A stretch of 64,000 nucleotides of DNA from Phycisphaerales bacterium (lineage in GTDB: Bacteria > Planctomycetota > Phycisphaerae > Phycisphaerales > UBA5793). Shown here piece after piece: positions 14,556 through 21,051 of this stretch. Each line of letters opens with the position of its first letter. Within the stretch, counting starts at the first letter, position 1. The notes under the pieces were generated by a model that worked only from the letters and a program-made list of their open reading frames with translations, did no database searches and was not told the origin of the DNA. A program made the position numbers and the translations under genes. The stretch spans positions 62,001-126,000 of the forward strand of contig JADZAS010000004.1 in the NCBI GenBank assembly GCA_020852515.1, in the 5' to 3' direction.

Positions 14556-17500
14556 GTGGCGAGCGATTTGAGTACCGCAATCCTCGACGCCAATCTCGCC
14601 GCGCTCGCCGGGCACAATCCACGGCTCGTGCAGCGGATCCGTGCCGCGCCACCATCTCCGGAGTGCGCGTTCGCACCGACGCCTCAGGATGTTCCCGCCC
14701 TTTCGCTGGGGGGATCACAATTGTGCAGCCGCCACCGGCCCCTGGACGAGGCCGACCGCTTTGCGGCGTCGGTCGACATCGTGGAGCACGCGGCGGTCGT
14801 GGTGCTGGGCTTTGGCGCGGGATATCACGTGCAGCGGGTGGCCGAGCGGCTGCGCAAGACCGGCCTGATCATCGTCTACGAGCCGGACGTGGCGATGCTG
14901 CGCGCTGTATTCGAGCGGGTAGACCACTCGGCTTGGATCAACGCGACGAACCTCGTGATCGCCGACGAGGCGGAAGACCGCGCTTCGCTGGCATCGCAAC
15001 TCGCCGGTGCCGAGGGCATCGTCGCGCAAGGCACAACGATCGAATCGCACCTGCCCAGCCGCACGCGTCTGGGCGAAGGAGCCGGCCGCTTCGGCAAGAT
15101 GCTCGCCGACCTGGTGTCGAACATCCGCACGACGATGCTGACGACGCTCGTGCATTCATCGACGACCTGCCGCAACCTGAGCCTGAATCTCGACCACTAC
15201 GGCGCGGGCGAAGGCATCGCACCTTTGCAAGGCATTGCCGCCGGGCGCACGGCGCTGCTCATCGCGGCGGGTCCGAGCCTGTCGCGGCATTACGAACTCC
15301 TCGCGGACCCTTCGCTGCGCGAGCGGGTGGTGATCATCGCGGTGCAGTCCTGCCTGCGGCCGCTGCTGCGGCGCGGCATTCGGCCGCACTTCGTGACGGC
15401 GCTGGACTATCACGAAATCAGCCGGCACTTCTACGACGGGCTCGATCCCCACGAACTGCGCAACATCACGCTGGTCTGCGAGCCGAAGGTGAACCGGATC
15501 GTGGTCGAGTCGTACCCGGGGCCGATTCGCTGCGTGGCCAACGGCTTTCTCGACCGGCTGCTCGGACCGCTGGCGCGCGACATGGGCGCCGTGCCCGCGG
15601 GCTCGACGGTTGCTCATCTCAGTTTTTACCTGGCGCAGTATCTCGGCTGCGATCCGATCGTGCTCGTCGGCCAGGATCTGGGCTTTACCGACAATCTCTA
15701 CTACGGCCCGGGCGCCGCCATTCACGACCAGTGGGCGCCGGAGATCAACGCCTTCAACACCATCGACATGATGGAATGGGCCCGCGTGGCGAGGATGAAG
15801 CGCAACCTGCGCCAAGCGCCGAGCCAGTCGGGCGCGCCGATGCTCATCGACGAGCAGATGAGCACCTACCTGACGCAGTTCGAGCGCGACTTCTCCAGAG
15901 CGCCGCAGACGATCATCGACGCGCAGGGCGGCGGCGCTGCCAAACAGCACACACTCGTTCGCCCGCTTGCTGAAGTGATCGCGGAGGCCGGCTCGACCCC
16001 CCTGCCCGATTTTACCGCCGAGCGCCGACCGCTGAACCCGAAGCGGCTTGGCGAGATCAGCCGGCGCATCCAGTCCGTCTGCGGCGACGTACAGGAACTC
16101 GAGCGCATCAGCCGCGACACGGGCCGCGTGCTGGGTGAAATGGCCGCTCGCCAGCGCGATGCGGCGGCGATGAAGCGGTTGTTCCAGAAAGTTCGCGACA
16201 ACCAGCGGCGCGTGGACGGCCTTGAGCGCACGCACGACCTTGTCAACAACCTCAACCAACTGGGTGTGTTCAAGCGGCTCCGGGCCGACCGGCGACTCGA
16301 ACTCACCGAGGGCCTTGACCCCCTCGAACGGCAAAAGGCCCAACTCGAACGCGATCAGACCAATGTGCGCTGGCTCGCAGACGCCTGCGCGGAGGCGAGG
16401 CACATACTCGACGATGCCCTGCGCGTGCTGCGCGGCGAAGCCGTGAGCACGCGCATCGGCGAGGGCTATGCGGGTGAGGACGCGCCGGATGGTGATGTTC
16501 TCGCCCAGCGGCCTCGCCGCATTGCCGCGATGATTGCCGTAGACCCCGCGCGCGACGGCCTGCTCCGCGAGCCCTCACTGGGCGGCGCCGCGAACGATGG
16601 CGCGCTGCTCCAGCGCACGCTCGAGCGGCTTGGCCGCTGCCGGCGCATCGAGTCGATCGTTCTGCTCGTGCCGCGCAGCTTTGCGGTGTGCGAACTCATC
16701 CACGCAGAGGCGATCGACCGGCCGCTTGTCGTACGAGAGATCGACGGACCGGTCTTTGACGATGCGCACCCAGCAGTGGCCGCCGCGCGGCAGTGGAGCG
16801 ACTGGTGCTGGCGCGGCGGCATCGGCGGGATGACCGTCTTTGACGAGATCATGGCGCCGGCCTGCATGGCTGAGGCGATGGATGAGCTCGGACTCGACGC
16901 CGTGGTCGTCGTCGGCCCGGACTGGCCCTTGCTCGACTGGTCGGAATCGACCGGCTGCGATGCGCTCGTCGCTCGCTACCTCGAACATCCCGAGAGTCAT
17001 CGCCTCGTGTTCACCCAGGCGCCGCCGGGGCTGTGCGGCGTGCTCGTCGAAGCGTCGCTCATGCGCGAAATGGCCCAGCGGGTGCGGCAGTTCACGCTGG
17101 GCTCGATGCTCTCGTACATTCCCAGCCTGCCGCAACTCGACCCGACGAGCAAAGATGCGTGCATCAAACTTCCTGCGGAGATCCGCAACCACGCAGGCCG
17201 GTACATCGGCGGCCAGCGGGTCGCGGCGCTTGCCGATGCAATTGGCCCGGAGAGTTGCGGCACGGAGTTGCTCGCAGCGATCGGCGCAGCGCCGCGCGAA
17301 GTCGATGCGCTACCGCAGCAGATCGAGATCGAACTGACGACACGGCGCGTTACACAGCCGCGATGGTTGACTGAGGCCGTCGCGCCAACCGACGTTGAAG
17401 TCGAACTGGTCGAGCGCGTCTTGCACGAAGCAGCGGGGCGCGGCGACCTGGCGGTGACCTTCGGCGGCAGAGGTGATCCGCTGCTGCATCCGCGGTGTCG

Positions 17501-18125
17501 CGAGATCGTTCAGTTGTGCCGCAACCTGGGTTGCCGCGCGATCCATATCCGCACCGACCTGCCCGAGTCTTTCGATGCGCTGCAACTGTTCGACTGGCCG
17601 GTGGATGTCATCAGCATTGAACTGCAGGCGGAGACCGCGGCGACGTACCGGGCGGTCATGGGCGTCGATCGTTTTGATGACCTGCGGCGGCGCGTTGATG
17701 CGCTGATCAACGCGCGGACGGCTCGCACGGGCAATCCGAACCGGCTCGCGCTGCCGTGGATCGTACCCCGCATGGCGCGTTGCCGGGCGACGATGGACGA
17801 GATGCGCAACTTCTACGATCGCTGGCTGCACTACGCGGGCGCTGCGATGATCGACCCTTGGCCGGGGGAAGACGGCACGATTTCGCTCGAAGCGCCGCCG
17901 GCCGCTCGCGATGAACTGAACCGGCGGATCATGCACATGCGCGCGGATGCCACGGCGTTCTCCGGGCCAAGCGGCTGGGGAGCGCCCGCGCCGGAGGATA
18001 CGATCGATCTCACCGCGCAGTCGCTCGCCGAGGCATGGTCGCAACTGCAGTCGCGCCTGCGCTGGCAGTCGAATCATGAAGAAGCCGATGCGCCGGCGCT
18101 CATCCTCGAATTCGGTGCTGCGTGA
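14556..18125 (+). CDS. Maf/DUF115-type glycosyltransferase fused to nucleotidyltransferase-like and radical-SAM-like domains
   Basis: A 1189-residue protein heading a nonulosonate operon. Residues about 20-620 are Maf/DUF115: an N-terminal Rossmann part (VVLGFGAGYHVQRVAERL), then GRTALLIAAGPSLSRHYELL near 228-247, HFVTALDYHEISRHFYDG near 280, and a GCDPIVLVGQDLGFTDNLYYGPG stretch near 363-385. Maf proteins transfer nonulosonic acids to flagellin. Residues about 650-900 resemble a cytidylyltransferase/SpsF-type fold (LLQRTLERLGRCRRIESIVLLVP) with the N-terminal nucleotide loop degenerate. Residues about 920-1189 look like a radical-SAM barrel (IEIELTTRR ... FGGRGDPLLHPRC), but the CxxxCxxC cluster motif is absent. 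Starts at GTG 14556. The domain limits are my estimates. Confidence 0.8.
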   Translation: MASDLSTAILDANLAALAGHNPRLVQRIRAAPPSPECAFAPTPQDVPALSLGGSQLCSRHRPLDEADRFAASVDIVEHAAVVVLGFGAGYHVQRVAERLRKTGLIIVYEPDVAMLRAVFERVDHSAWINATNLVIADEAEDRASLASQLAGAEGIVAQGTTIESHLPSRTRLGEGAGRFGKMLADLVSNIRTTMLTTLVHSSTTCRNLSLNLDHYGAGEGIAPLQGIAAGRTALLIAAGPSLSRHYELLADPSLRERVVIIAVQSCLRPLLRRGIRPHFVTALDYHEISRHFYDGLDPHELRNITLVCEPKVNRIVVESYPGPIRCVANGFLDRLLGPLARDMGAVPAGSTVAHLSFYLAQYLGCDPIVLVGQDLGFTDNLYYGPGAAIHDQWAPEINAFNTIDMMEWARVARMKRNLRQAPSQSGAPMLIDEQMSTYLTQFERDFSRAPQTIIDAQGGGAAKQHTLVRPLAEVIAEAGSTPLPDFTAERRPLNPKRLGEISRRIQSVCGDVQELERISRDTGRVLGEMAARQRDAAAMKRLFQKVRDNQRRVDGLERTHDLVNNLNQLGVFKRLRADRRLELTEGLDPLERQKAQLERDQTNVRWLADACAEARHILDDALRVLRGEAVSTRIGEGYAGEDAPDGDVLAQRPRRIAAMIAVDPARDGLLREPSLGGAANDGALLQRTLERLGRCRRIESIVLLVPRSFAVCELIHAEAIDRPLVVREIDGPVFDDAHPAVAAARQWSDWCWRGGIGGMTVFDEIMAPACMAEAMDELGLDAVVVVGPDWPLLDWSESTGCDALVARYLEHPESHRLVFTQAPPGLCGVLVEASLMREMAQRVRQFTLGSMLSYIPSLPQLDPTSKDACIKLPAEIRNHAGRYIGGQRVAALADAIGPESCGTELLAAIGAAPREVDALPQQIEIELTTRRVTQPRWLTEAVAPTDVEVELVERVLHEAAGRGDLAVTFGGRGDPLLHPRCREIVQLCRNLGCRAIHIRTDLPESFDALQLFDWPVDVISIELQAETAATYRAVMGVDRFDDLRRRVDALINARTARTGNPNRLALPWIVPRMARCRATMDEMRNFYDRWLHYAGAAMIDPWPGEDGTISLEAPPAARDELNRRIMHMRADATAFSGPSGWGAPAPEDTIDLTAQSLAEAWSQLQSRLRWQSNHEEADAPALILEFGAA

Positions 18126-18141: not shown

Positions 18142-18888
18142 ATGAGTGCTTTGAACGGATCAGGACGCGAGCGAGCCACCGCGGTCATTCTCGGCCGGGC
18201 CGGCAGCAAGGGCCTGCCGGGCAAGAACGCGATGCGCCTGGCCGGCCGGCCCATGGTGCAGTACTCCATCGAGCACGCGCGAATCGCCGCGACGGTGAGC
18301 CGCATCCTCGTCTCGACGGACTGCCCGCACGTGGCTGCCGCTGCCCGAAGTGAGGGCGTAGAAGTGATCGCCCGACCCGCCGACCTCGCGGGCGACGAGG
18401 CCACGGTGGACGCGGCGGCTCGCCACGCTCTGCGCGACGACGATGCACCGATCGCGGTGATGCTGTATGCCAACGTACCGATCCGGCCGGCGGGGCTGAT
18501 CGATCGCGCGGTCCGGACCCTGATCGAATCAGGCGCTGATTCGGTGCAGAGTTACGCGCCGGTGGGCAAGTATCACCCCTACTGGGAAGTGAAGATCGAC
18601 GCTGCGGGGCGCGTGTCGGCGTATGTCGAGAACACGGTGTACCGCCGCCAGGACCTGCCGCCGCTGTTCGTGCCCGATGGCGGGGTGATCGCCGTGCGCC
18701 GGACGAGCCTGTACGACGTCGTCGAAGGTCAGCCGCATTCGTTTCTCGGTCGTGATCGCCGCGGCATTGAGAACGCCGCAGGCTCCGTGATCGACATCGA
18801 CGATCGCATGGATCTCCTGCTGGCCGAACTCATCCTGAACGAGAATGCCGACCGACGCGCCGAGGCCGCCAGCCATGCGCATCGGTGA
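18142..18888 (+). CDS. neuA: CMP-nonulosonate (acylneuraminate) cytidylyltransferase
   Basis: A 248-residue cytoplasmic enzyme that activates a nonulosonic acid with CTP to give the CMP-sugar donor. The nucleotide-binding signature is AVILGRAGSKGLPGKNAMRLAGRPMVQYSIEHA (residues about 14-46), matching the R-x-G-S-K-G-x-P-x-K-N motif of the NeuA/PseF/LegF group. Later landmarks are LYANVPIRP, IESGADSVQSY and the acidic end VIDIDDRMDLLLAE. ATG 18142 follows an AGGGGAG ribosome site and lies 16 bases after the Maf-like gene. The last 14 bases overlap neuB. Which nonulosonic acid it uses (Neu5Ac, legionaminic or other) cannot be decided here. Confidence 0.9.
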   Translation: MSALNGSGRERATAVILGRAGSKGLPGKNAMRLAGRPMVQYSIEHARIAATVSRILVSTDCPHVAAAARSEGVEVIARPADLAGDEATVDAAARHALRDDDAPIAVMLYANVPIRPAGLIDRAVRTLIESGADSVQSYAPVGKYHPYWEVKIDAAGRVSAYVENTVYRRQDLPPLFVPDGGVIAVRRTSLYDVVEGQPHSFLGRDRRGIENAAGSVIDIDDRMDLLLAELILNENADRRAEAASHAHR

Positions 18889-19921
18889 GCGCTCGATCGG
18901 CCGCGATGAGCCGCCATATGTCATTGCCGAGATCGGCGTGAATCACGACGGATCGACGCAACGCGCGCTGCAACTGGTCGAAGCGGCAAAGCACGCCGGC
19001 GCGGATGCGGTGAAGGTGCAGTATTTTGAGGCGGAGCACCTGATGAGCCGGGCGTGCCGGCTTGCCAAGTACCAGGAGCAAGCGGGCGAGACCGATCCGC
19101 TTGAGATGCTGCGCGGCCTGCAACTCAATCGCGAGGCCATGAGCGAGATCGTCCGCTACGCACACTCGCTCGATCTGCACGCCGTCGTGACGATCTTCAG
19201 CCTCGAAGATGCGCCGCTGGCGGGCGAGCTGGACTGGGATGCGATCAAGACGGCCTCGCCTGACATCATCAACATTCCCCTGCTCGAGGCATTGGCTGCG
19301 GCGGGCAAGCCGCTGATCGTCAGCACCGGGGCCGCCAACGCCGAGGAGATCGCCGCCGCCCTGTCCCGCCTCGGCGACATCGCGCTGCACTGCGTGAGCG
19401 CCTATCCCACGCCGGATGAGTGCGCACAACTGGCCGGGATCGGCGCCCTGGCTGACCTCGCGCGAACCGTGTGCCCGGATCGCAACCTCGCGATCGGCTA
19501 CTCGGATCACACTCCATCGATCGACACCGGCGGTCTCGCGGTCGCGTGCGGCGCGAGCGTGCTCGAAAAGCACCTGACGTGGAGCCGCACCGCGCGCGGG
19601 CCGGACCACGCGGCGTCTCTCGATCCGGGCCAGTTCGCCCAGTACGTGCAGCTCGCCCGCCAGGCCCGGGCGATGCTTGGGCCGCGCGACGTCATCGTGC
19701 AGACGATTGAAGAGGATGTCCGCACCGTCAGCCGGCAGTCGATTACCGCGACGCGCGACCTGAAAGCCGGCGCGATGCTCACGCGCGATGACCTCACGAT
19801 CAAGCGTCCCGGCGCCGGATTGCCGCCCGCAATGCTCACGGCTCTCCCGGGGCGCCGGCTGGCGCGCGATGTCGCTGCGGATACGCCACTCACTGCCGCC
19901 GATCTCGAGGGGGGAGCGTGA
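18875..19921 (+). CDS. neuB: N-acylneuraminate/nonulosonate synthase with SAF domain
   Basis: A 348-residue enzyme that condenses phosphoenolpyruvate with an N-acyl-hexosamine to form a nine-carbon nonulosonic acid. The barrel begins PPYVIAEIGVNHDGSTQRALQLVEAAKHAGADAVKVQ and contains LIVSTGAANAEEI, the CVSAYPTP segment and AIGYSDHTPSIDTGGLAVACGASVLEKHLTW, all typical NeuB landmarks. A C-terminal SAF (antifreeze-like) domain starts near residue 290 (SITATRDLKAGAMLTRDDLTIKRPG). ATG 18875 gives the family-like N-terminus MRIGERSIG; an in-frame ATG at 18845 would lengthen it by ten residues. It overlaps neuA by 14 bases, and its stop overlaps the neuC start. Confidence 0.93.
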   Translation: MRIGERSIGRDEPPYVIAEIGVNHDGSTQRALQLVEAAKHAGADAVKVQYFEAEHLMSRACRLAKYQEQAGETDPLEMLRGLQLNREAMSEIVRYAHSLDLHAVVTIFSLEDAPLAGELDWDAIKTASPDIINIPLLEALAAAGKPLIVSTGAANAEEIAAALSRLGDIALHCVSAYPTPDECAQLAGIGALADLARTVCPDRNLAIGYSDHTPSIDTGGLAVACGASVLEKHLTWSRTARGPDHAASLDPGQFAQYVQLARQARAMLGPRDVIVQTIEEDVRTVSRQSITATRDLKAGAMLTRDDLTIKRPGAGLPPAMLTALPGRRLARDVAADTPLTAADLEGGA

Positions 19922-21051
19922 TGGCCGCATCGCGGTTGCCCTGGAAGATCGCCGTCGTCACCGGCTGCCGCGCCGACTTCGGTTTGCTGCGCCCGGTCAT
20001 GCGCGCCATCGCGGTGTCGCCGGTGCTTGATCTGCAGGTGATCGTGACGGGGACGCATCTTCTGGCGGAAGTGAACACGCGCGATGAAGTCGCGACTGAA
20101 TTCGAGATCGACGCCGAGGTGGCCATGCAGCGAGCGGGCGAAACCGGGCGCATTGCCGACGCCAGTGCGCTGGGTCGCGGCGTCACCGGCATGGCCGAGG
20201 CCCTTGCGAATCTCAAGCCGGATGTCGTGCTCGTGCTCGGCGATCGCATCGAGGCGTTTGCCGCGGCGTCGGCGGCGAGCGTCGCGGGCATTCTCGTCGC
20301 CCACGTGCACGGCGGCGACCGGGCCGAAGGCGTAGCGGATGAAGCGATGCGTCATGCCATCACCAAGCTCGCGCATATCCACTTTCCCGCGACGGCGCAG
20401 AGTGCCGAGCGCATCGCGCGCATGGGCGAACGCGAAGACGCGATCCACATCGTCGGCTCGCCGGCGATCGATGATCTGAGTGCTTTCGAACCTCTCGCGG
20501 ACGGGCAATTGTGCGAACTTGGGCTCGACCCGGCGCGTCCGTTCGCCGTCGTGCTGCATCATCCGACAGGGCTCGATGATGCCATCGAGTTCGAGACGAT
20601 GTCGGCGGTTGCTGCGGCGACGGATGCCGCTTTCGGAGGCAACTTCGTCATCGGCGCGCCAAATCACGACCCGGGCCGGGCCGCAGTTCTGCGCGCGATC
20701 GGGCAGCGGCGAATGCTGCCGCACCTGCCCCGTCAGCACTTCATCGGCCTGCTCCGGCGGGCGGCAGTGCTCATCGGCAACTCATCGGCGGGGCTGATCG
20801 AAGCCGCGGCGCTGGGAGTGCCGGTCGTCAACGTCGGGCCGAGACAAGCCGGCAGAGAACGCGGCGGGAACGTGTTCGACGTCCCTGCCCCGAGCCCGAG
20901 TGCAGTTGGGCAGGCGATCGACCGGGCTCGCTGTCTCAAACCCGGCACGAGCCACCCCTACGGCGACGGCCGCGCCGGCGAGCACATCGCGGCCACGCTG
21001 GTTCAACTGCATGCGTCGCCGCCGTCGATCCGCAAGCGCATTTCATACTGA
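19921..21051 (+). CDS. neuC: UDP-N-acetylglucosamine 2-epimerase (hydrolysing), NeuC type
   Basis: A 376-residue GT-B-fold epimerase that converts a UDP-GlcNAc-type substrate to a free ManNAc-type sugar, the acceptor for NeuB. Landmarks: KIAVVTGCRADFGLLRPVMRAI at the start, VVLVLGDRIEAFAAASAASVAGILVAHVHGGDRAEG, the RHAITKLAHIHFPAT segment, and LIGNSSAGLIEAAALGVPVVNVGPRQAGRERG near the C-terminus. Distinguished from the non-hydrolysing WecB by the GDRIEA ... HGGD pattern typical of NeuC/LegG. ATG at 19921 overlaps the neuB stop and follows a GGGGGGAG ribosome site; a GTG three bases earlier is possible. With neuB and neuA it completes a minimal nonulosonate pathway. Confidence 0.92.
   Translation: MAASRLPWKIAVVTGCRADFGLLRPVMRAIAVSPVLDLQVIVTGTHLLAEVNTRDEVATEFEIDAEVAMQRAGETGRIADASALGRGVTGMAEALANLKPDVVLVLGDRIEAFAAASAASVAGILVAHVHGGDRAEGVADEAMRHAITKLAHIHFPATAQSAERIARMGEREDAIHIVGSPAIDDLSAFEPLADGQLCELGLDPARPFAVVLHHPTGLDDAIEFETMSAVAAATDAAFGGNFVIGAPNHDPGRAAVLRAIGQRRMLPHLPRQHFIGLLRRAAVLIGNSSAGLIEAAALGVPVVNVGPRQAGRERGGNVFDVPAPSPSAVGQAIDRARCLKPGTSHPYGDGRAGEHIAATLVQLHASPPSIRKRISY

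Follow-up and report, generated by a model that had tools for sequence, protein, structure and literature searches.

The window analysed, a stretch of 64,000 nucleotides, comes from the 4.7 Mb, 39-contig assembly of a Phycisphaerales bacterium (genome G000). On its forward strand, a single open frame of 1189 amino acids with a GTG start was found at 14556..18125, and directly 3' of it lie neuA (18142..18888), neuB (18845..19921) and neuC (19918..21051) in the same orientation. The first of these, a CMP-nonulosonate synthetase gene by its match to PF02348 (6.2e-20), starts 16 bp after the long frame; the second matches the nonulosonate synthase families PF03102 (2.6e-58) and TIGR03569 (7.8e-83, below the curated cut-off); and the third, encoding a UDP-GlcNAc 2-epimerase, scores 312.9 bits with TIGR03568, above the cut-off of 235.9. 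The first-pass annotation had described the long frame as a three-part protein heading a neuABC operon, and the Pfam and NCBIfam matches confirm the operon, while profiles and fold comparison agree on a Maf/DUF115 part, a cytidylyltransferase-fold domain and a radical-SAM-type barrel. The extra part beyond Maf (hereafter the tail) is likewise present, but it measures about 550 residues (640-1189) and not the 570 given earlier. Searched against the PDB as a single sequence with phmmer, the whole fusion protein gave no useful match, and its full-chain AlphaFold model, based on a five-sequence alignment, reached a pLDDT of 42.5.

The Maf/DUF115 glycosyltransferase part occupies residues 1-640 (14556..16475). 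Its MptE-like/DUF115 core (PF01973, residues 212-379) scored 113.8 bits against a cut-off of 34.6 (9.5e-33), and a profile built from 20 Maf heads matched the solved 666-residue protein 5mu5 at 4.1e-14. For the Maf N-terminal family PF20157, the window protein scored 19.6-21.6 bits, below the cut-off of 23.5, and all 20 heads matched at E<0.01 (best 1.2e-9). The fusion gene encodes the sole PF01973 protein of its genome, which also encodes two clear flagellins plus a protein related to them; flagellin was detected in 92 of the 94 genomes with PF01973. The Maf part is a predicted nonulosonate transferase acting on flagellin. It is joined to the tail by a variable linker (residues 635-653, 16458..16514), which has 47% identity to its counterpart in a relative whose Maf part is 94% identical.

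The first domain of the tail (residues 654-895, 16515..17240) is nearest in fold comparisons to cytidylyltransferases of the IspD/KdsB/NeuA type. A nucleotidyltransferase-like segment of NeuA type had been suspected here, and it is supported by profile matches both to NeuA and to solved cytidylyltransferases: hhalign aligned the domain with NeuA proteins encoded at the same loci at a probability of 93% (E 2.7e-7), the profile of 72 tails matched the cytidylyltransferase 6oew and an IspD chain, and VIA-align of the tail model gave Z scores of 13.3 to 6oew and 13.1 to the KdsB-type 1h7e. Many of the near-invariant positions of the 72 tails, namely R745, W752, R753, G754, G755, D763, E764, P824 and G825, lie in this domain, and several of them form a WRGG...DE stretch (residues 752-764, 16809..16847), whose W, R and two G residues are kept in 70-71 tails, with D in 68 and E in 66. 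Among the basic residues of the first NeuA loop (RxGSKGLPxKN), which bind the CTP phosphates, the lysine is not matched by any conserved residue of the tails, and the arginine was found in a minority. Judging by its sequence, the fusion protein should not be classed as an active cytidylyltransferase.

Residues 918-1100 (17307..17855) form a radical-SAM-type (partial TIM-type) barrel, as the earlier reading had proposed, followed by a cysteine-free Twitch/SPASM-like end (residues 1101-1189, 17856..18122). Compared with nine intact radical SAM proteins from Planctomycetota, the barrel gave an hhalign probability of 99.85% (E 1.4e-30, 177 columns), with 0.8% for the nucleotidyltransferase-like profile as negative control. 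The AF2 model of the tail, with a mean pLDDT of 62 and values of 80-90 over a large part of the barrel's first half, displays the expected strand-helix order and a terminal hairpin and helix as in Twitch/SPASM domains. Its best fold match was PqqE (Z 17.1, 220 residues, 2.7 A), with DesII, SuiB, BtrN, MoaA, CteB (5why/5wgg) and anSME ranking just after, and the Pfam families Radical_SAM and SPASM were recognized in 55 and 39 of the 72 tails, respectively. Both patterns read from the sequence at first sight are present, IEIELTTRR at residues 923-931 and FGGRGDPLLHP at 969-979. The latter contains GGRGDPLLHP (residues 970-979, 17463..17492), the counterpart of the GGEP motif, and the form GGxGDPLLHP is well conserved among the tails (G971 in 67, G973 in 69, D or E at 974 in 68 and H978 in 65 of 72).

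The reported lack of cysteines at the CxxxCxxC site also holds, as R931, P935 and L938 stand in their place in the hhalign alignment (residues 931-938, 17346..17369), and the motif was found at this site in none of the 72 tails, a sample that spans the order, its class and further classes of the phylum. The position of the first cysteine is occupied by R in 44 tails and by D in 13; a CxxxCxxC pattern occurs elsewhere in two tails, and one (L026) has three cysteines close to the site with a different spacing. Since the cluster site is missing in every planctomycete member sampled, the tail would not cleave S-adenosylmethionine in the known way; the loss of the radical SAM site across all these members is strongly supported, and at the sequence level it excludes known radical SAM chemistry by the tail. 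A second set of four cysteines (C...C...CxxC), which lines up with the region of the BtrN auxiliary cluster, is kept at the C-terminus in 38 of 45 unfused tails. The full set was present in none of the 27 fused tails, and the window protein has none of the four.

In most other loci the tail is a gene of its own. Of 34 unfused loci from Phycisphaerae and other Planctomycetota, 30 have it directly 3' of maf, and the two genes often overlap by 4 bp (ATGA). In 198 genomes of the class, after exclusion of four weak tail matches (E>1e-6), Maf and tail were found together in 92, tail only in 2, Maf only in 2 and neither in 102 (Fisher 1e-51, a test that ignores shared ancestry); the pattern was seen across many families of the class. 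The two genomes with tail only are 65% and 86% complete, and flagellin genes were detected in 90 of the 92 genomes with both. Within the class, about 50 genomes that encode flagellin, belonging to families f9, f102, f103, f108 and f109 (e.g., G197, G212, G355 and G436), carry neither Maf nor tail, suggesting that their flagellin is unmodified or modified otherwise. Outside the class, one locus (L096:4313-9422, G087) displays the order Maf, tail and a second Maf-like protein. No tail relatives were found in viral contigs or plasmids. Taken from co-occurrence, gene order and fusion, the view that the tail is linked functionally to Maf and works with it is strongly supported.

In a set of 60 relatives, the fused form predominates in families f1 to f4 of the order, while f5 and f6 carry maf and tail as neighboring genes. 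In two loci of the latter families (L011:1393-5067 and L021:1234-4863), Maf and tail share one frame with a single in-frame stop between them (TGA and TAG, respectively), an arrangement that likely pictures the state before fusion. The full-length fusion is also present in four congeners (63-88% identity) and in a clade that comprises 27 of the loci sampled, and in a tree computed without the C-terminal columns all fused tails fall on one side of a single branch (SH-aLRT 98). These relationships indicate that the tail was ancestrally a separate partner gene of Maf and that the fusion arose once; with one fusion event, the loss of the auxiliary cysteines counts as one correlated change and not as 27 independent ones. 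At least one of neuA, neuB and neuC lies near all six fused tails examined and near 16 of the 34 unfused ones. One record (L033, WYBR01000013.1) is titled Vicinamibacteraceae (Acidobacteriota), yet its gene, 62% identical over the full length, sits firmly within the planctomycete clade, so that it is probably a mislabelled metagenome assembly.

Compared with the 88% identical relative, dN/dS was lowest in Maf (0.07), followed by the barrel (0.15), the nucleotidyltransferase-like domain (0.19) and the C-terminal end (0.22), and it was highest in the linker (0.40). The tail is under purifying selection by this comparison, and values well below 1 indicate that it is functional, with the C-terminal end drifting faster.

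With moderate confidence, we consider the tail to be a pseudoenzyme that assists Maf, that descends from a radical SAM/SPASM protein and that most likely recognizes or positions flagellin. Its ancestor would have been a two-domain protein with a cytidylyltransferase-fold domain and a radical SAM/Twitch domain, from which a dedicated accessory module of Maf may have arisen, usually made as a separate protein from the next gene and fused in the window. The operon's own NeuC, NeuB and NeuA would supply the CMP-sugar, as their families suggest, and the tail very probably acts with Maf in transferring the nonulosonate, presumably onto flagellin, in the cytoplasm. There, the barrel and the Twitch-like end may hold or present flagellin at the Maf active site in the manner of their peptide-holding catalytic cousins, and the WRGG...DE part of the first domain may bind Maf or a nucleotide or sugar ligand. 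That the tail recognizes or presents flagellin is suggested by analogy, because several of the nearest folds (PqqE, SuiB, CteB and anSME) handle peptides and because there are precedents in Maf and FlmG: Maf1 of A. caviae directly binds flagellin ahead of the export chaperone (PMC4065374), and the unrelated flagellin glycosyltransferase FlmG of Caulobacter owes its specificity to a flagellin-binding domain of its own (PMC7591256). As for the history, we give about even weight to a stepwise conversion from enzyme to scaffold, in which a radical SAM/Twitch protein that had lost its SAM cluster and carried a nucleotidyltransferase fold became a subunit that Maf requires for specificity or activity across Planctomycetota, and then underwent one fusion in which the last iron-sulphur site was shed.

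The earlier proposal of a catalytically silent tail guiding nonulosonate transfer stands in so far as the tail is conserved without its ancestral catalytic site and is tied to neuABC, Maf and flagellin; its peptide-recognition half is less secure. Against a role in recognizing flagellin, many of the near-invariant residues lie in the nucleotidyltransferase-like domain and not in the barrel, and they may serve to bind a ligand, to dock Maf or to carry out an altered chemistry; our confidence in the specific role is only moderate because such a site for a ligand or Maf is possible there. Maf proteins elsewhere reach flagellin without such a partner, which counts against an accessory role. Two genomes, G012 (L050:1086-4301) and G024 (L049:2535-5042), have no recognized flagellin but keep the fusion; the export gene fliP is present, the Maf part is degenerate (GQDL changed to GVDL or GVDP) and the tail is recognizable throughout. 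This too weighs against the flagellin role.

The most serious competitor, which we nonetheless regard as unlikely, is that the tail assists on the donor side, its first domain binding CMP-nonulosonate or CMP and passing the donor from NeuA to Maf or controlling Maf, with the barrel as scaffold. The near-invariant WRGG...DE, PPG and single D/R positions, the fold itself, which is that of CMP-sugar synthetases, and the neighboring neu genes all fit this arrangement, but the tails conserve no counterpart to the lysine in NeuA's phosphate-binding loop, neu genes are missing from the flanks of about half of the unfused loci, and the window already encodes a separate NeuA. More doubtful still is an enzyme of altered chemistry acting on flagellin or sugar, whether, for instance, by cluster-independent use of SAM, by a redox step at the auxiliary cluster where unfused forms have one, or by a new reaction of the nucleotidyltransferase-like domain. 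Purifying selection, the well-kept motif at the SAM-binding place and the near-invariant residue set of the first domain would suit an enzyme, yet the radical SAM cysteines are absent from all 72 tails, and the additional loss of the auxiliary ones in fused forms rules out a general redox role. We find it improbable that the tail merely stabilizes Maf or aids its expression with no part in substrate choice: strict pairing and fusion are equally expected of a stabilizing subunit, but clusters of near-invariant residues and a kept ligand-type motif exceed what stabilization needs. A sequencing or assembly error joining separate genes, or a decaying relic, as the two degenerate catalytic signatures might suggest, is ruled out for practical purposes by the fusion in four congeners and the 27-locus clade and by dN/dS well below 1.

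How Maf chooses the serines and threonines of flagellin is an unsettled question, and few pseudoenzymes of the radical SAM superfamily have been described. The role of the tail is testable, since it occurs both fused and unfused, and some forms have a probable auxiliary cluster that others lack. The finding also hints at what proteins currently annotated as spiro-SPASM, or simply as radical SAM, may do. In a literature search that drew mainly on open-access journals, no mention of spiro-SPASM or TIGR04321 was found, nor any connecting radical SAM proteins to Maf.

With reference to known systems, the nearest named family of the tail by profile search is the NCBIfam spiro-SPASM family TIGR04321, which 67 of 72 tails matched at E<0.01 (the best at 1.3e-46, with almost the full model covered). 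Length and two-part layout are the same, but the planctomycete members all fall below the curated cut-off of 250 bits (best 158 bits in G115; 27.3 bits in the window). TIGR04347 (pseudo-SAM/SPASM), matched by 13 of 72 tails at E<0.01, provides a named pseudo-SAM precedent among SPASM proteins, but it is named for haloarchaea and we know of no link between it and Maf. Like NeuA, KdsB and IspD, the first tail domain has the cytidylyltransferase fold, but it displays the WRGG...DE set in place of the basic phosphate-binding residues of the first loop. Residues 918-1189 share the fold and GGEP-like motif of the radical SAM/SPASM and Twitch enzymes (PqqE, SuiB, CteB, anSME, BtrN and MoaA), and unfused relatives even keep the BtrN-like four-cysteine site; unlike those enzymes, the tail lacks CxxxCxxC and the window protein lacks the auxiliary cysteines as well. 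On sequence grounds, the fusion protein should not be classed as a radical SAM enzyme but as a Maf protein with a fused pseudo-radical-SAM partner. Caulobacter FlmG (PMC7591256) is comparable as a flagellin glycosyltransferase with a separate specificity-setting part, though the domains are unrelated and its flagellin-binding domain is N-terminal. Finally, the protein resembles the Maf flagellin nonulosonate transferases (DUF115/PF01973, PF20157; 5mu5) over residues 1-640, including the GPSL and GQDLGF motifs, and in its place next to neuABC in a genome that encodes two flagellins; it differs from them in the roughly 550 further residues, whose counterpart in relatives is the partner gene after maf.
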